IMG/VR virus record: IMGVR_UViG_3300043637_000004
Span: 1-58,262 of that record
Source of the DNA: a virus
Reading direction: 5' to 3' (one strand)
DNA length: 58,262 bases
Numbering within the stretch: the first letter of the stretch is position 1; every line of letters starts with the position of its first letter. Shown in pieces: positions 25,121 to 38,662 of this stretch. Under the pieces are notes generated by a model. The model was not told the origin of the DNA. It made no database searches and saw only the letters and a program-made list of their open reading frames with translations. Position numbers and translations under genes: made by a program.

Positions 25121-27604
25121 ATGGCCGATACCGTTTCAGAAGCGAAGGAGTTGTGGCAAGAGGCCGACGACTTCTACCGCGAAGAGCACCAGCGCATGCT
25201 GGAGGACTTGGAGTTCAGCAACCCCGCCGATCCCAAGCAGTGGACGGAGGCGGACAAGAAGGCGCGGGAGGAAAACAAGAGGCCGTGCCTGACGCTGGAC
25301 CAGACGAACCAGGTCATCGACCAGGTGGCCAACGACGCCCGGCAGAACCGGCGCGGAGTGGACATCACGCCCACGGACACGCAAGGCAGCAAGCGCACGG
25401 CCGAGGTGATGGAGGGGATGGTCAGGCAGGTGGAGTACGAGAACCGCGCCTACATCGCCTACAACACAGCCCTGGACTTCGCCGCGCGCATGGGCAAGGG
25501 CTACTTCCGCATCGGCACCAGGATGCTGAACCCGGCCATGAACTGGCAGAAGATCACGGTTTCGGCCATCGTGTCGCCGCTGTCCGTGCGCTTCGACACC
25601 GGCAGCGTGGAGCTGGACGGCATGGACGGCAAGTGGTGCTTCAACGCCTACGACATGCACCGGCGCCAGTTCAAGAAGAAGTACGGCGACAAGACCGCCC
25701 ACACGTCGTGGACGGACACCGTGGGCCGCGACAACTTCATCACGCTCTGCGAGTACTTCTACGTGGACGAGGTGGCCGAGAAGTACCTTCACGTGGTGCA
25801 GAGCGATGGCGTCGAACGCCAGATCCTGGCCGCAGACTGGGAAGCCGAGGCAGGTTCAGCGCAACAGCGCGGGCTGGGGCTGCAACCTGGCCGCGACTTC
25901 GAGGTGATGCAGGCGCAGACCCGGTATTGCCTCTACAGCGGCTCCGAGAAACTGGAGGAGGACCGGGACTTTCCTTCGCAGTACATCCCCATCGTGCCGG
26001 TGTACGGGCACGTGCTGTGGATCAAGAACAAGCGCTACGTCTGCGGGCTCTCGCGGCGGATGCGCGAGTCGCAGCGGCTGCGAAACTTCGAGCGCAGCGC
26101 CTGGGTGGAGGTGGCTGGTCAGCAGCCCAAGGTGCCGTGGATCGTACCTGTCGAGGGCATCGCCGGGCACGAGGACAAGTGGAAGAACGCGAACCGTAGC
26201 AGTGACTCTGCTCTGGTCTACAACGCCTTCACGGCCGACGGACAAGCAATCCCGCCACCACAGCGATCTGCCCCGCCAAACGGTGCCCAGGTGTTCGCGG
26301 CCGGCGTGAACATGGCCACCGACGACTTGCAGGCGAGCGTGGGCTACTACCGCTCGAACTACGGCGCCCCCAGCAACGCCGTCAGCGGAAAGGCCAAGCT
26401 GGCAGACCAGCGCGAGGGCGACACAGCCACCTTCCACTACCAGGACAACCTGTCCATCGCCATCGAGCACGGCGGCCGGATCATGGTGGACATGATCCCG
26501 CGGGTGATGGACAGTAAGCGCGAGGTGACGGTGCGCTCGATCGCGGGCGCTGCCGAAGACGTGGTGGTTGACCCGGATGCCGGCGAGGCGTTCCAGCAGG
26601 GCGCCAACGGCAGCAAGGTCGTGAACTTCAACAAGGGCGGCTACGCCGTGCACGTGAAGACCGGTCCCGCGTACCACACGCTGCGGCAGGAGGCGAGCAC
26701 GGCCATGACAGAGCTGCTTTCGCGCAACCCGGCTCTGATGCAGATCCTGGGCCCGTGGTGGCTGCGGATGCAGGACTGGCCAGGCGCCGACCACGCGGCC
26801 GAGCTTCTGATGGCGGTGGCGCCGAAACCGATCCAGGACCTGGAGAACAAGAACACCAAGATCCCGGCCGAGGTGCGGCCTATCATCGCCGGCATGGAGC
26901 AGCAGATCGAGGCGGCGGCGCAGCAGATCCAGGAAATGGGCCAGGCGCTGCAGCAGGCGCAGATGCAGTTGCAGGACAAGCAGGCCGACGCCCAGGCGAA
27001 GATGATGGATGCCGACACAAAGGCCGGCGAGGCGCAGGTGAACGCCCAGGTGAAGGTGGCCGAGCTGGCCCTGCGCGAGCGCGATATGGGCCTGCGCGAG
27101 CGAGAAATGGTGCTGCGCGAGCTTCAGGCAGCCCAGCAGGCCGACCAGGCGGCCCAGTCCGGCAACGACACTGACAACGGCCTGGAGGTGGCGCTGAAGG
27201 CCAGCATCGACGATCAGAAGCTGGAGATCGATCGCTACAACGCCGAGACGAAGCGCATGCAGGTCGAGCAGGACGGAGAGATCGCTGCGAGGAAGGCCGA
27301 TCAGGAGGCTGCGGCCCTGGCGCTGGCCGCGGACAAGGACGAGCAAGACCGGGTGACCCAGGGCGCGGGCCCTGCCGGTGAGGCCCAGTCCAGCGCCCAG
27401 CCCGCGGCGGCACTCGACTCCGGCATGGCCGCGGCCCTGCTGGTGGCGCTGCAAACGCTACAGCAGACGGTGGATTCGCTCACGGCGTCTAAAAACAAGG
27501 TGGCGCGCATGACGAAGGTCGGTGATGGGACCTGGCAGATGGAGAGCGTGGAGACGCCGGCTGAACAGCCTGGCGCTGATGAACTCGAAGGAGATGAGGC
27601 TTGA
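25121..27604 (+). CDS. P22-like portal protein
   Basis: 827 residues; P22 gp1 has 725. The N-terminus has EAKELWQEADDFYREEHQRM, then KRPCLTLDQTNQVIDQVAND ARQNRRG, the usual portal beginning. The core PSNAVSGKAKLADQREGDTA and HYQDNLSIAIEHGGRIMVDM match P22-type portals. Residues about 575-800 form a long Gln/Ala/Arg-rich coiled coil, expected for an extended helical barrel. Twelve copies form the DNA entry channel at one capsid vertex. The stop overlaps the next gene by TTGA. Confidence 0.92.
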   Translation: MADTVSEAKELWQEADDFYREEHQRMLEDLEFSNPADPKQWTEADKKAREENKRPCLTLDQTNQVIDQVANDARQNRRGVDITPTDTQGSKRTAEVMEGMVRQVEYENRAYIAYNTALDFAARMGKGYFRIGTRMLNPAMNWQKITVSAIVSPLSVRFDTGSVELDGMDGKWCFNAYDMHRRQFKKKYGDKTAHTSWTDTVGRDNFITLCEYFYVDEVAEKYLHVVQSDGVERQILAADWEAEAGSAQQRGLGLQPGRDFEVMQAQTRYCLYSGSEKLEEDRDFPSQYIPIVPVYGHVLWIKNKRYVCGLSRRMRESQRLRNFERSAWVEVAGQQPKVPWIVPVEGIAGHEDKWKNANRSSDSALVYNAFTADGQAIPPPQRSAPPNGAQVFAAGVNMATDDLQASVGYYRSNYGAPSNAVSGKAKLADQREGDTATFHYQDNLSIAIEHGGRIMVDMIPRVMDSKREVTVRSIAGAAEDVVVDPDAGEAFQQGANGSKVVNFNKGGYAVHVKTGPAYHTLRQEASTAMTELLSRNPALMQILGPWWLRMQDWPGADHAAELLMAVAPKPIQDLENKNTKIPAEVRPIIAGMEQQIEAAAQQIQEMGQALQQAQMQLQDKQADAQAKMMDADTKAGEAQVNAQVKVAELALRERDMGLREREMVLRELQAAQQADQAAQSGNDTDNGLEVALKASIDDQKLEIDRYNAETKRMQVEQDGEIAARKADQEAAALALAADKDEQDRVTQGAGPAGEAQSSAQPAAALDSGMAAALLVALQTLQQTVDSLTASKNKVARMTKVGDGTWQMESVETPAEQPGADELEGDEA

Positions 27605-30246
27605 CCCAACTTTTCGCGAACAACGCCCAGAGCACGGTGGCGTCCCTGGTTGGCGCGGCCGATAACACGGTGCAGGTTGCCAGCGGCGATGGTTCGCTGT
27701 TCCCGACGCCAGCCGGCGGCGACTACTTCCGCGTCACGCTCACCCAGGCCGGCGACGAAAGCTCGTGGGAGATCCTGACGTGCACCGCCCGCAGCGGCGA
27801 CGTGCTCACCGTCACACGGGCGCAGGAGGGCACCGCCACGGCGACCTGGGCAGTTGGCAGCAAGGTCGAGTTGCGCCTCACGGCTGGCGTGCTGTGGCCG
27901 CTGGAGTCGAGCGTCTCCGGCAACCTGCCGGTGGCGAACCTGGATGGCGGGACCAATGCCGACGCGACCACGGTATGGCATGGCGACGGAGCCTGGCGCG
28001 TGCCTGCATCAGTATCAGGCACCGTCACCTCGGTGGATATCACGCCGCCCAGCGAGGGCATCACGGCCAGCGGCGGACCAATCACGTCGTCAGGGTCCAT
28101 CGTGTTGGAACTTGCGAACGACCTGGCTGCTGTGGAAGACCTGTTTGGCGCAGGGATTGCCGTGCGGGTGGACGAGGATGTGTGGGAACTGCGTGAGATT
28201 GAAGGGGCGCCTACTCGGATAGATGTCGTGGACGGCGACGGCTCGGGCGGGAATCCAACGATTGACATCTCGGCCTCGTACAACGGGCAGTCCACCATCA
28301 CTACGCTCGGGACAGTAGTGATCGGAGGTTGGCAGGCTACCCCGGTTGACGTGCCATACGGCGGCACGGGGCTCGTCAGCGTCGGATCGGCTGGGTCCTT
28401 GCTGTATTCCACGTCGCCGTCTACCTTGGGCATCGTCCCTCCGAGCGCTGATGGGTTCGTGTTGACGCTCGTTTCTGGCGCGCCGGACTGGCAGCCATCA
28501 ACGCTCACCGGCGGCACCGTCACCAGCGTGGGCATCACCCCACCAGCCGCAGGTATCACGGTCTCTGGTGGGCCGGTCACAACGTCCGGTGCAATCACGC
28601 TGGCCCTAGCCAATGACCTGGCCGGTCTGGAGGGATTGAGCAGCTCCGGCCTGGCCTCGCGGACTGGGGTCGATACATGGGCAGTCCGGGCCGTCGTTGG
28701 GGTGAACAACCGCACAACGATCACGGACGGCAATGGCGTGGCGGGTGACCCGACAGTAGACATCGCAGTAACCTACGTCGGGCAGACCAGCATCACCACG
28801 CTCGGAACAGTTGGCACCGGGGTCTGGCAGGGTACGACCGTTGCGGCCAACTTCGGCGGTACCGGGTTCATTTCCTACGCGGTGGGTGACATCCTATTCG
28901 CCAGCACCACCAGCGTGTTGTCGAAGTTGGCTGACGTGGCAACCGGCAATGCGCTCATCTCCGGCGGGGTCGGCGTAGCTCCGGCCTGGGGAAAGATCGG
29001 TCTGGCCACCCACGTCTCTGGCTCCCTGCCGGCCGGAAACGGCGGCACCGGGTACTCCAGTTTCACGGATGGCGACCTTCTGGTAGGACTCAACGGGGCG
29101 GTGATAGCCAAACTGGCTATCGGCAGCACGAACCAAGTTCTGACTGTCGTTGGCGGCCTGCCGGCATGGGGTGGGGCACCAAGCAGCGCCCTGACGTCCA
29201 CCAACATCGGTTATGGCAACGGGTCGAACGTGCTCACCGGCACATCCACCTTCACTTGGACGAACTCGACGCTTACGATGCAGATGGGCGCAGGCACCGG
29301 GGTGTCCACCATCCAAACTGCCGCGGCGTCCAGCGGCTCCAATGCGGCGTCCTTGACGATCCAGACAGGTGCCGCGAACTCCGGCGTTGTAGGGGCTGGG
29401 TTGCTGACGCTTCAGGGCGGTGCTGGGGCCGGCACATCGGCAGCCGGCAGCGTCGCCATCACAGCCGGCAACAACCCGAGCTCCGGGGCCGGTGGCTCGG
29501 TGTCAATCACAGCAGGAACAAGCTCAAGTGGCACAGCCGGCAACTTCACCGTGGTTGTCAACGGCACCACGCGGCTGACCATCGCGAACACTGGCGCCGC
29601 CACGTTCCAGTCGTCGCTGGCGGGCACCTCCGGCGTGTTCTCGTCCACGCTGGAAAGCACGTCGCTGCTGGTCACGGGATCGACGGCGCCAGCCAACGGC
29701 ATGTACCTCCAGGCCGCTGGCGTGGTCGGACTGGCGGCCAACTCCACGGCGGCCTACAAGTACGGGTCGAACGCCTTCCTGTCCCAGACGGACAACTCGC
29801 GTGACCTCGGCGAGGCATCCACCGGGCGCTGGCGCAATCTCTACATCGTCAACAGCCCGACCGTTGGCTCTGACCTGCGCGGCAAAACCGATGTGGTTGA
29901 TTGCGATCTGGGGCTGAACTTCGTGCTGGCCCTTCGGCCGATCGCCTACCGGCAACTGGTGGGCAAGGTCGAGGTGAGCAAGGACGGATTGAACACGGAA
30001 ACACCGGTGCCTGGTGATCGCGTGCACCGCGGCTTCGGCGCGCAGCAGGTACGCGAGGTGCTTGGCCAGTTCGGGCTGGACGGACGAACCTTCGCCGGCT
30101 GGTGCCTGGCCGACCCGGCCGACCCAGAGTCACGCCAGGCACTTCGCCACGAGCAGTTCATCGCGCCGATGGTGAAGGCGATCCAGGAACAGGCTGCCCA
30201 GATCGCGGAACTGCGCGCCCAGGTGACGAAGCTGCTGGGCGGCTGA
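27601..30246 (+). CDS. Tail fibre/spike with S74 chaperone domain
   Basis: 881 residues from TTG, overlapping the portal stop by TTGA. The N-terminal part (about 1-100) is a likely attachment domain. Two copies of a beta-rich unit follow (GTVTSVDITPPSEGITASGG and GTVTSVGITPPAAGITVSGG, each with ITTLGTV and GGTG), then Gly/Ser/Ala-rich repeats. The C-terminus from about residue 757, SDLRGKTDVVDCDLGLNFVL, ALRPIAYRQL, HRGFGAQQVREVL, is a peptidase S74 intramolecular chaperone, which trims itself with a Ser-Lys dyad. Host recognition is the likely role. Its place between portal and scaffold is unusual for P22-type order. Confidence 0.88.
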   Translation: MTQLFANNAQSTVASLVGAADNTVQVASGDGSLFPTPAGGDYFRVTLTQAGDESSWEILTCTARSGDVLTVTRAQEGTATATWAVGSKVELRLTAGVLWPLESSVSGNLPVANLDGGTNADATTVWHGDGAWRVPASVSGTVTSVDITPPSEGITASGGPITSSGSIVLELANDLAAVEDLFGAGIAVRVDEDVWELREIEGAPTRIDVVDGDGSGGNPTIDISASYNGQSTITTLGTVVIGGWQATPVDVPYGGTGLVSVGSAGSLLYSTSPSTLGIVPPSADGFVLTLVSGAPDWQPSTLTGGTVTSVGITPPAAGITVSGGPVTTSGAITLALANDLAGLEGLSSSGLASRTGVDTWAVRAVVGVNNRTTITDGNGVAGDPTVDIAVTYVGQTSITTLGTVGTGVWQGTTVAANFGGTGFISYAVGDILFASTTSVLSKLADVATGNALISGGVGVAPAWGKIGLATHVSGSLPAGNGGTGYSSFTDGDLLVGLNGAVIAKLAIGSTNQVLTVVGGLPAWGGAPSSALTSTNIGYGNGSNVLTGTSTFTWTNSTLTMQMGAGTGVSTIQTAAASSGSNAASLTIQTGAANSGVVGAGLLTLQGGAGAGTSAAGSVAITAGNNPSSGAGGSVSITAGTSSSGTAGNFTVVVNGTTRLTIANTGAATFQSSLAGTSGVFSSTLESTSLLVTGSTAPANGMYLQAAGVVGLAANSTAAYKYGSNAFLSQTDNSRDLGEASTGRWRNLYIVNSPTVGSDLRGKTDVVDCDLGLNFVLALRPIAYRQLVGKVEVSKDGLNTETPVPGDRVHRGFGAQQVREVLGQFGLDGRTFAGWCLADPADPESRQALRHEQFIAPMVKAIQEQAAQIAELRAQVTKLLGG

Positions 30247-33583: not shown

Positions 33584-34300
33584 ATGGCGATCACCGCCCG
33601 CGGGACCATCACCGGCGCGCTGAAGATCCTGGGGGTGCTCGATCCCCTGGAGACGATGAAGCCTGAACAGGCCGACCAGGGCATGGAGTCGCTGGCCGAC
33701 CTGGTGGACCTGCTGGCGGTGGACTCGCTGGTGATCTACGCCACGCAGAACCTGACGGCGGCGTTCGCGGGGGCATCGGCCACGGTGGGCCCGGCAGGGA
33801 CGTTCGCCACCACCACCGCGCGCCCGCTGCGGATCAACCACGGCTTCTACCGCAAGAGCGGAATCGACTACCTGGTCACGCCGCTGCAGACGCGGGCGCA
33901 GTACGACAGCATCAGCCAGAAGAGCATCTCCACGGAGTACCCGGAGTATCTCTGGTATGACCCCCAAGTGCCGCTGGGCACCGTGTACGTGTGGCCGGTG
34001 CCGGCGGGCGTGAACAGCTACTTCCTGAACGTGGACGTGCTGTTGACCGAGTTCGCGACGCTGGACACGAGCTACAACGTGCCGCAGGGCTACCGGACCA
34101 TGCTCAAGTACGAGCTGGCGCGGCTGCTGGCGCCGATCTTCCAAGTGGCCATGCCGGCCGACGCCGAGCGCGTGCGCGTGAACGCGATGAACCTGATCAA
34201 GCGCACGAACACGCAAGTGCCGAAGATGCGGACGGACACCATCCAGACGGAAGGGCGGACGTACAACATCCTGAGCAACCAGTTCGACGGCGGCACCTGA
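33584..34300 (+). CDS. gp4-like head-to-tail adaptor (tail accessory factor)
   Basis: 238 residues, longer than P22 gp4 (166). ARGTITGALKILGVLDPLET, then QADQGMESLADLVDLLAVDS, followed by SISQKSISTEYPEYLWYDPQ, PLGTVYVWPVPA and YRTMLKYELARLLAPIF fit the gp4-like family. Gp4 binds under the portal ring and creates the site for gp10. The order gp4 then gp10 is preserved. Confidence 0.82.
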   Translation: MAITARGTITGALKILGVLDPLETMKPEQADQGMESLADLVDLLAVDSLVIYATQNLTAAFAGASATVGPAGTFATTTARPLRINHGFYRKSGIDYLVTPLQTRAQYDSISQKSISTEYPEYLWYDPQVPLGTVYVWPVPAGVNSYFLNVDVLLTEFATLDTSYNVPQGYRTMLKYELARLLAPIFQVAMPADAERVRVNAMNLIKRTNTQVPKMRTDTIQTEGRTYNILSNQFDGGT

Positions 34301-34312
34301 CCGGGGGCGGAC

Positions 34313-35224
34313 GTGGAGATCCCATTCGTCGGGCCGACCTATAACCTGGAGACGCGGGAAGCCGCGGTCCAGCGCACCATCAACATGGAGCCGCTGCCGC
34401 AGGAGCCTGGCAACGAGCGCACCGCCTGGGTGTTCCAGGACGTGCCGGGGCTGGTACTGGCGACTGACTTCCCGGCCGTGGCCACCGAGACCGTGCTGTT
34501 CCTGTTCCACATGATAGGTGACGAGCCGACATCGGAAGGGGCGGCGGAGTTCGTTGGGCCTGGGCAAGCGTTCGATCAAACAGGAGCAAACTGGGACGCA
34601 ACTAATGTCGGCTCTGAGATATTCTCGTCGTTTCCTTACCCGAAGTTTGGGGTGGCGGGGCTACTGGACGCGTCGGGGGTGATGTGGGTCCGGGATGATT
34701 CACCAACAAATCCGGAAGTTCCTGGAGAGTTTTCTACGGTCGGGAAGACCACGCTGCAGATATCGACTTGGATTTTCGTTCAAGCGAACAGCACCGTTCC
34801 GCCGGTTCTGTTGGAAATTTCTGTCGGTAAATTCGCTTACCCGTTCGGATCCAGTACCCTCATCCTACGCGTTACCGGTGATGGTGATGTATTTCAGGCA
34901 CAAGTGGCGTGGCAGCCGTCTGATTTTGGTGAACAATCGTCTAATCCAGCGTCGGTACCTACGTATGGGTGGGTCAATCTGGTGTTGTCATACTACAAAA
35001 TTGGCGAATTTGCTAACGTGGAGCTATACATAGACGGTGTGTTTTCAGGGGGGCTTTCCGAAGTCGATCTATCCGGTGTACTTGAAGATATGAACCCAAT
35101 AAACGACATGTTTATACAAATGGCGGGCCCCGGAGTGTATATAGATGAAGCTCGATCGACTCTTGGTGGAACCGCTATCTTTTCTGACTTCACCCCGCCG
35201 GTTGCACCATGGCCAAACCCTTGA
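34313..35224 (+). CDS. gp10-like N-terminal fragment fused to a LamG-like domain
   Basis: GTG start, 303 residues. Residues 1-56 (MEIPFVGPTYNLETREAAVQ... VPGLVLATDFPAV) match the start of P22 gp10, the packaged-DNA stabilisation protein. The rest is lower in GC and reads as a concanavalin/LamG-like sandwich: LFHMIGDEPTSEGAAEFVGP, KFGVAGLLDASG, VELYIDGVFSGG, GPGVYIDEARS. The remainder of gp10 is encoded by 35733-36941. Either an insertion split the gene and the two parts assemble, or the N-terminal part gained a carbohydrate-binding role. Confidence 0.75.
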   Translation: MEIPFVGPTYNLETREAAVQRTINMEPLPQEPGNERTAWVFQDVPGLVLATDFPAVATETVLFLFHMIGDEPTSEGAAEFVGPGQAFDQTGANWDATNVGSEIFSSFPYPKFGVAGLLDASGVMWVRDDSPTNPEVPGEFSTVGKTTLQISTWIFVQANSTVPPVLLEISVGKFAYPFGSSTLILRVTGDGDVFQAQVAWQPSDFGEQSSNPASVPTYGWVNLVLSYYKIGEFANVELYIDGVFSGGLSEVDLSGVLEDMNPINDMFIQMAGPGVYIDEARSTLGGTAIFSDFTPPVAPWPNP

Positions 35225-35733
35225 TCGACTTCGTGGCCCTGGGCGATCAGGTGCTGCCCTCGGTGCCCACGCTGAGGTGCGTGCCGCTGGCAGAGCCGAA
35301 CTGCAGTGCGCTCTACCTGCGCCGGCTGGAGGCTGCGGACACCAGCCGGTGCGAATGGCTGTGCTTCGTGGACGGGGGTGACGACGTGCTCGACTTCGGT
35401 TTCGTGCCGGCCATGCACGCGCTGGCCCTGCGCGCTGCCAGTGCAGGGTACACCATCGGCTGGGCCACGGAGACTGTGCACGGCAAGCTGGACCCCCGCG
35501 GACACCCACACCATGGTGTGGTCTGCAACGTCGCGGCCCTGCGCGCCATCGACTGGCCGGATGGCTGCTACCACTGGGAGTCCATCGCATACGGCATGCT
35601 CAAGCGTGGTGGTCACGTCTTCGACCCGGTGCCGCGGTACGACTGGCGCCCGGGGCCGGGTGGTGCCCGGCTGTGGCCGAGCACACGCACCGGTATTGGC
35701 AACAGCAACCGCTGGTTGCGGGAGAATCTCTGA
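35209..35733 (+). CDS. Putative small glycosyltransferase-like protein
   Basis: 174 residues, start overlapping the previous gene by 16 bases. CEWLCFVDGGDDVLDFGFVP contains a DGGDD acidic cluster like the DxD metal site of GT-A enzymes; HGVVCNVAALRAIDWPDGCY and a YHWESIAYGMLKRGGHVF stretch resemble small phage GT-like proteins. It lies within the interruption of the gp10-like gene. It may modify a tail or fibre part or host sugar (inference). Confidence 0.45.
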   Translation: MAKPLIDFVALGDQVLPSVPTLRCVPLAEPNCSALYLRRLEAADTSRCEWLCFVDGGDDVLDFGFVPAMHALALRAASAGYTIGWATETVHGKLDPRGHPHHGVVCNVAALRAIDWPDGCYHWESIAYGMLKRGGHVFDPVPRYDWRPGPGGARLWPSTRTGIGNSNRWLRENL

Positions 35734-36941
35734 TGGCGCAGATCCGCGGCCTGACGACGTTCAGGGGCTTCCTGCACGCGGTGCGTGACAACATCGTGTA
35801 CCGCATCGACAGTGCCGGCGGCTTGACCAACCTTGGCACGATCAACAGCACCGGCGGCCCGGTTGACTTCGCGCAGACGGCGCAGCAGTTGGGCATCACC
35901 GACGGCGCGCAGTTGTTTGTGTACGACGGCACAACGCTGGAGCAGTCTCTGGACTACGTTCCGGGAGCGCGCATCGCCGTGATGGACCAGCGGCTGTTCT
36001 TCGACCAGCGGGACACCCAGGTGTTCGGGTTCGCCAACCTGAACAACATGCTGGCGATCGACGCCGACGACATTTTCAGCGCCGAGAAGCTGCCTGACAA
36101 CCTCAAGGCCGTGGTGGAGGTGTACGGGGAACTGCTGATGCTGGGGCAGTTCAGCGGCGAGGTGTGGAGTGGCGTTGGCGGGCTGGAGGTGGTGGCTCGC
36201 AACGAGAGCGCGCTGATCGAGTTCGGGACGGATGCGCCGTACTCATTGCAGAAGGTCGGCGGCTCGTGCATGTGGCTGGGCCGGAACGAGCGCGGGCAAA
36301 TGGCGGTTGTGCAAATGAAGGGCTACCAGTCGGTGCCTGTGAGCACGCGATCGATCGAAGAACGGTTCGAGGGCCTGGATGTAGACCGGGCGCGGGCGTA
36401 TGTGCGCCTGCGCGGCAAGCGCGAGTGCTACTACCTGAACTGCCCGGGCGTGGACACCACGCTGGTGTATGACACGGCCTTCAAGCAGTGGCACGAGGAA
36501 GCGGAGATCGTGAACGGCCAGTACAGGCCGGCGCGCGCCACGTGCGCCGCCTTCGCCTACGGCCGGCACTACGTGGGCGCCGACGACGGCAACCTGTACG
36601 AGGTACGCGAGGACGCTCACGACTTTGCCGGGGACGTGAAGTGCCGGGACCGGATATCGCCGGTGGTGGCCAACCCAGAGTTCAGTCTGATGCGGTTCCC
36701 GCACTTCGAGGTGCTGTGCCAGAAGGCTACGACGGCCACAGTGATGATGCGGTACAGCGACGACAACGGCCACACCTGGGGCAACTGGCGCTACGAGACG
36801 GCTGGGGATGCCGGCCAGTACCGGCGGCGGGTGCGGTTTGAGCGGCTAGGCCAGGCCGCTGACCGGGTGTACCAGGTGCGGGTGACAGACAACGCGCCGT
36901 TCAACCCGGTGACGGTTGATGTGGGGGTGCGGCGGCGATGA
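35733..36941 (+). CDS. gp10-like tail factor, main (propeller) part
   Basis: 402 residues from ATG with GGGAGA upstream. The start MAQIRGLTTFRGFLHAVRDN aligns with the point in P22 gp10 just after VPGLV...; later blocks GTDAPYSLQKVGGSCMWLGR, VVQMKGYQSVPVSTRSIEER and RATCAAFAYGRHYVGADDGN are family-typical, as is the ending VMMRYSDDNGHTWGNWRYE. It lacks the first ~55 residues of the family, which are encoded at 34313. Gp10 closes the portal-gp4 channel. Confidence 0.82.
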   Translation: MAQIRGLTTFRGFLHAVRDNIVYRIDSAGGLTNLGTINSTGGPVDFAQTAQQLGITDGAQLFVYDGTTLEQSLDYVPGARIAVMDQRLFFDQRDTQVFGFANLNNMLAIDADDIFSAEKLPDNLKAVVEVYGELLMLGQFSGEVWSGVGGLEVVARNESALIEFGTDAPYSLQKVGGSCMWLGRNERGQMAVVQMKGYQSVPVSTRSIEERFEGLDVDRARAYVRLRGKRECYYLNCPGVDTTLVYDTAFKQWHEEAEIVNGQYRPARATCAAFAYGRHYVGADDGNLYEVREDAHDFAGDVKCRDRISPVVANPEFSLMRFPHFEVLCQKATTATVMMRYSDDNGHTWGNWRYETAGDAGQYRRRVRFERLGQAADRVYQVRVTDNAPFNPVTVDVGVRRR

Positions 36942-38116: not shown

Positions 38117-38662
38117 ATGGAAAGCACGGCAGTCATCACATTCCCGGAGGGCCCGGACTTCGACATGACGGCGCAGCCGCGGGGTCCGTACCGGCTGACG
38201 CTGGCGGAACGTGACGCGCGGCCGGCGCCGGCGCATCAACTGGAATTGCGCGGGAAGATTGACATGCTGGGGCTTCTGTTTAAGTCGCCGGCAGTGGATG
38301 CCGCCGGCTTCCATCGGCTTGACCCGGCAGACCCTGAGATGCTGTCGCACATGTTCACGCCCGGCATCTACCTGCGTAAGTTCAAGATGAAGGCCGGCTC
38401 GGTGGTGGTAGGGAAACTGCATGCTCAGGAGCACCTGTGCATCATCTCGGCCGGTCGGGCTCTGGTGACCACCGAAGCCGGGACGCAGGAGATTGCGGCG
38501 CCATGCGAGTTCGTTTCACCGGCCGGCTCCAAGCGGGCGCTGGTGATCCTGGAAGACATGGTATGGATCACCATCCACCGCAGCGATAAAACCGACCCAG
38601 AAGAACTACTGGACGAACTGACAATTCAAGAGCCGCACCTTGATCAGGGAGCTTTGCAATGA
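38117..38662 (+). CDS. Cupin-fold phage protein
   Basis: 181 residues. The C-terminal half MFTPGIYLRKFKMKAGSVVV, GKLHAQEHLCIISAGRALVT reads as a cupin (GxxHxxEH...G motif with HAQEH), and the N-terminal half is a low-complexity leader. Similar proteins lie before ejection genes in several podoviruses. Metal or ligand is unknown. Confidence 0.65.
   Translation: MESTAVITFPEGPDFDMTAQPRGPYRLTLAERDARPAPAHQLELRGKIDMLGLLFKSPAVDAAGFHRLDPADPEMLSHMFTPGIYLRKFKMKAGSVVVGKLHAQEHLCIISAGRALVTTEAGTQEIAAPCEFVSPAGSKRALVILEDMVWITIHRSDKTDPEELLDELTIQEPHLDQGALQ

Follow-up and report, generated by a model that had tools for sequence, protein, structure and literature searches.

The locus described here raises the question of how a P22-like phage makes its tail nozzle when the gene for this protein lies in two pieces with other genes between them. 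The nozzle retains packaged DNA and opens on infection, and few tail proteins of podophages are as conserved (PMC6702177). The window, that is the whole stretch of DNA analysed (58,262 bases; IMG/VR virus record IMGVR_UViG_3300043637_000004, metagenomic), exhibits P22-like morphogenesis genes for terminase, portal (25121), scaffold (30795), major head protein (31713) and ejection protein (38659). An 881-aa tailspike/tail-fibre-like gene (27601-30246) is found apart from the nozzle genes, in the interval between those for portal and scaffold. A plus-strand gene at 33584-34300, matching PHROG_12985 (unknown function, E-value = 1.6e-27), corresponds in location to a gene of phage DSL-LC05 that bears the annotation "tail adaptor"; its position, that of gp4, points to an adaptor role. 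Directly downstream of this putative adaptor gene, and on the same strand, are three tightly packed ORFs (34313-35224, 35209-35733 and 35733-36941).

The first and the third of these ORFs carry the two parts of one nozzle protein. The translation of 34313-34480 matches positions 4-56 of the PHROG_578 (head closure Hc3) profile (E-value = 0.005), and the ORF at 35673-36941 matches positions 59-469 (E-value = 6e-63). The full-length profile is covered only by the two products together, and these complementary matches bear out the first-pass annotation, which had proposed a gp10-type gene divided after about 55 residues, with its parts starting at 34313 and 35733. A family HMM built from relatives, the window included, recognizes the N-terminal piece (N-piece) with an E-value of about 1e-32; scanning both strands of the window with it returned one N-piece and one C-terminal part (C-part), and no second copy of either half. 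From these matches and from alignments, the N-terminal segment of about 53 residues is placed at 34313-34471, starting with GTG, and the C-terminal propeller part at 35733-36941, with its own ATG overlapping the preceding stop codon as TGATG. The P22 gp10/Hc3 nozzle is a single polypeptide, whereas the N and C parts in the window are separate ORFs with separate starts.

Profile scans with the C-part and the N-piece returned about 100 loci (labelled L002 and so on below), which were then mapped by HMM and read ORF by ORF. Among 84 distinct C-parts, 73 were counted as intact, being encoded within one ORF (most of these cases were assigned by script), and 11 are split. L027, whose C-part is truncated where the contig stops, is split as well; in L029 a fusion to the N-piece runs to the contig end. 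Distant matches covering C-part positions 157-396 only (L009-L014) are left out of this count. The window N-piece is 60-72% identical to the N-pieces of L002-L007, and its C-part 40-52% identical to theirs. The close relatives were checked for an arrangement in which the counterpart of 35733-36941 alone is the full-length protein and 34313 an unrelated gene, and none exhibited it: their N-segment is found either in the same ORF (L067, L028) or in a separate ORF just upstream. In all, 11 environmental phage contigs besides the window share the position of the cut in the nozzle gene, and they belong to two separate clades. What had been taken for a single insertion is instead a recurrent architecture with interchangeable cargo. 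On the C-part tree the split label occurs in the window clade (support 100, 7 rows) and in the clade of L030, L072 and L079 (support 98), with intact relatives between them. This calls for two or more changes of the label, on a quick tree with some long branches where two gains are indistinguishable from one gain and a re-fusion. An assembly chimera or a pseudogene might come to mind for a metagenomic virus record, but L002 has the same arrangement with the same cargo, ten more contigs have the same cut with other cargo, and all frames are open; we give this explanation a negligible probability.

The named phages that were opened as possible split examples are all intact, and two genome-collection scans returned no prophage relatives. 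Acetobacter phage phiAX1 (LC644973.1) was considered as a second named case and rejected: its 63-aa "phage stabilisation protein" (CDS 25392-25583) is unrelated to gp10, and its real gp10 is the intact PhiAX1_460, annotated as hypothetical. Other peculiarities were met among the relatives. The 745-aa nozzle ORF of L046 (4752-6989) has about 280 extra in-frame residues between profile positions 314 and 333, which are a second kind of insertion into the nozzle protein. In L048 (1811-2937) two overlapping ORFs divide the nozzle profile between them (positions 4-144 and 143-293), representing either a frameshift or another split point. L068 and L071 are two similar intact nozzle genes about 38 kb apart on one contig of 82,500 bases (IMGVR_UViG_3300019124_000103), which is either a double genome, two joined phages or a real duplication. 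The Manatee Spring phages MW202674.1, MW202483.1 and MW202691.1 have genes annotated as "endonuclease" beside or near an intact nozzle gene, a possible source of breaks near the nozzle site. Finally, a small protein encoded at 38117-38662 of the window matches the PHROG families "short tail fiber protein" (E-value = 3e-34) and "tail fiber adhesin", and L003, L004 and L007 have ORFs resembling it after the C-part.

The position of the cut can be read on an intact homologue, L067, which is about 40% identical to the window C-part and whose predicted fold has a mean pLDDT of 88.9 and a pTM of 0.90. A Foldseek comparison of this model with P22 gp10 gives a TM-score of 0.83 (E-value = 2.6e-26); its structural neighbours are Pan3, P22 gp10, Sf6 gp8 and Pam1 and, more loosely, the SU10 and T7 nozzles. 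The nozzle fold with its propeller is that of the intact homologue's model. In the model the N-segment forms strands at residues 21-23, 25-29, 39-43 and 46-52, residues 11-20 being less certain. The cut in the split class always falls between "PGL" and "(I)RG", that is at residues 53-56 of L067, in the turn that joins strand 46-52 to strand 57-63.

The C-part ATG lies at most 4 bases from the preceding stop codon in 12 of the 12 split records. An insert that always separates the two halves of one protein at one site would also be expected of an intron, an intein or a translational bypass, any of which would remove the insert and yield a full-length gp10. Against this, the inserts are mutually unrelated and 0.2-4.5 kb long, the N and C reading frames differ from one split member to another, every C-part has its own coupled ATG, and the insert exhibits neither a match to an RNA family (Rfam, E-values up to 1) nor flanking repeats. 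We regard removal of the insert as very unlikely.

Nearly all split contigs bear cargo in the gap, and the cargo types differ. The window and L002 share a LamG fusion followed by a 174-aa ORF, and L003 has another N-fusion together with a weakly GT2-like protein. The cargo of L004 and L006 belongs to PHROG tail-fibre families, with an Mtd-type fibre (Mtd_N) in L004, and the ORFs of L027 have the same look and order. There is one 262-aa fusion in L005, a LamG protein with a fibre-like ORF in L007, a LamG fusion in L072 and a DUF11 fusion in L029. The cargo proteins match PHROG tail-fibre families (E-values = 7e-64, 4e-49 and 3e-52), Mtd_N (1.5e-15) and Laminin_G_3 (2e-14 and 2e-6). L066 has no cargo; its N-piece stops at 1869 and the C-part ATG is at 1874. 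This range of cargo could be read as the use of a convenient expression site, where genes are placed in frame behind the gp10 start and the nozzle works without its N-segment, now a remnant or leader. The cargo in the window, L002, L003 and L005 does use the gp10 start region, and the fused N-pieces lie directly behind the adaptor gene. Such a reading does not sit well with the retention of conserved free N-pieces without large cargo (L006, L027, L066 and others), with the largely ordered beta-structure of the N-segment in the L067 model, or with the presence of at least one N-piece copy in every split record. We consider it unlikely.

The N-segment itself takes two forms, a short ORF of its own or the leading part of a fusion with a variable domain, and some records have both. 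The free N-pieces (53-81 aa) are retained with conserved residues, and in six records a single C-part is accompanied by a short N-piece as well as a fused one. The first N-copies of L004 and L007 are 80% identical to each other and 58% and 70% identical to their sister copies, so the duplication is not recent in these two contigs. The short N-pieces of L004, L007, L072 and L079 terminate in an acidic stretch, for example LLMEDGGALLQESTGFISLE or LVEDGGFLLWEDATITALE; these stretches are similar in unrelated contigs and possibly constitute a docking motif for cargo. The co-occurrence of a plain and a fused copy in six records would agree with a division of labour, in which the plain copy completes the nozzle and the fused copy is an attachment tag for a separate fibre, binding elsewhere, to the adaptor or a neighbouring subunit, and not in place of the nozzle N-segment. 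However, the sole N-piece is the fused one in the window, L002, L003 and L005 (the L005 and L003 records being perhaps incomplete), and we hold this division of labour to be rather improbable.

In the window the N-segment is followed in frame by a LamG-like (jelly-roll) domain (34472-35224, plus strand). The window protein itself has no Pfam match; its orthologue in L002, 45% identical, matches Laminin_G_3 (E-value = 2.7e-4), and the C-terminal FTPPxxPxP of the window protein recurs in the LamG proteins of L007 and L072. The domain is thus probably LamG-like, mainly on the strength of the L002 orthologue, in agreement with the initial description of an N-piece fused to a LamG-like sandwich. 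An AF2 model of the window fusion protein, computed with one homologue, had a pLDDT of 32 and was discarded as unusable. The same description held that about 1.2 kb between the two halves is low in GC. This is correct for the LamG-like part (0.49-0.56 over about 34500-35250), while the 174-aa ORF (35209-35733, plus strand) exhibits a GC content of about 0.70, higher than its surroundings.

This 174-aa protein, whose ORF overlaps both the end of the fusion ORF and the start of the C-part, had been labelled glycosyltransferase-like. The sole hint is a "FVDGGDDVL" motif: repeated searches returned no match in Pfam, PHROGs, PDB sequences or phage records at E-values up to 10. The protein encoded at this place in L003 is another one, weakly GT2-like (Pfam E-value = 0.004, PHROG E-value = 0.009), and the window protein has no detectable similarity to it. 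We therefore dropped the glycosyltransferase identity. Scanning with the 174-aa protein found one relative, 84% identical, in L002, where the arrangement is that of the window: N-piece with LamG fusion, 174-aa ORF, C-part and TGATG junction. Between the window and L002, identity at four-fold sites is 0.65 in the 174-aa gene, compared with 0.33-0.42 in the adaptor, LamG part and C-part (p = 3.7e-5 for the 174-aa gene versus the C-part), an excess of which the higher GC of the 174-aa gene may explain a little. High identity runs from the FTPP end of the fusion ORF to the first codons of the C-part. The 174-aa gene was thus replaced in place, by horizontal exchange, after its flanks had diverged.

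Taken together, these observations are probably best explained by a P22 gp10/Hc3-class tail nozzle made of two chains, whose N-segment, docking in trans, would hold an adhesin to the tail. Chain 1 would be the N-terminal stretch of about 50 residues, which in intact relatives provides the strands of the fold just before the entry to the propeller, and chain 2 the propeller body. Chain 1 would still dock on chain 2, the cut in the connecting turn making the N-segment a non-covalent plug. A domain fused behind this plug, LamG-like in the window, would be carried to the tail exterior, near the place of podophage fibre attachment. The fibres of T7 are lodged between its adaptor and its nozzle (PMC6702177), and by analogy with this position, and with SU10, the fused domain would emerge beside the fibre docking region. 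The gap would be a cargo site for the exchange of adhesin or fibre genes and, in some cases, of a second N-piece, with the stop/start coupling keeping plug, cargo and body co-translated. As short free copies exist, the N-segment itself would be needed; as one-copy genomes such as the window exist, the fused copy would serve as the nozzle N-segment as well, and up to six LamG domains per tail would therefore be expected in the window phage. We infer from this pattern docking in trans, presence of the products in the virion and an adhesin function. Given the separate tailspike, the window fusion need not be the receptor binder. The first-pass annotation had offered a two-chain gp10 and an N-piece turned binding protein as alternatives; both are probably true together.

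About a dozen related viruses with the same cut and different cargo suggest that the N-segment is a plug-in anchor for adhesins. It is conceivable, and we propose it only tentatively, that the nozzle N-segment is a general docking tag, that plain and cargo-bearing copies give mosaic subunits displaying different adhesins, and that the gap is a standing exchange site for host-range modules which arose at least twice. The natural and repeated cut at one point indicates where the nozzle chain can open while the gene is retained, allows assembly in trans to be tested directly, and suggests a route by which short-tailed phages mount and swap surface-binding modules.

The proteins of the window resemble the P22 gp10, Sf6 gp8, Pam1 and Pan3 nozzles in the PHROG_578 profile of both halves, in the fold of the intact homologue and in gene place, after the adaptor and before the ejection genes. 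They differ from the single chain of P22 gp10-type phages in forming two chains, with cargo genes between. The library searched contained no literature on a split gp10 or on a nozzle with LamG. The nearest published precedent that we found is that of KP36virus, where the T5-type distal tail protein (Dit; pb9 domains A and B) is split and one part anchors the receptor-binding protein (Latka 2019, PMC6872550). In both systems a tail hub protein is in two genes and one part is the N-terminal anchor of another protein: of a receptor-binding-type protein in KP36, and of LamG-like or variable domains, for which receptor binding is presumed, in the window type. Dit is non-homologous to the nozzle. 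KP36 is a siphophage, in which a whole Dit domain has moved to a fibre gene four genes away, whereas the podophage nozzle described here has an N-segment of about 50 residues, duplicated in some records, and several types of cargo located between its halves. The T7- and G7C-type anchors and adapters are similar in combining a constant N-terminal anchor with an exchangeable receptor-binding part, and in having fibres docked at the joint of adaptor and nozzle (PMC6872550, PMC6702177). In those phages the anchor is a domain of the fibre protein, whereas in the window type it is a structural segment of the nozzle itself.
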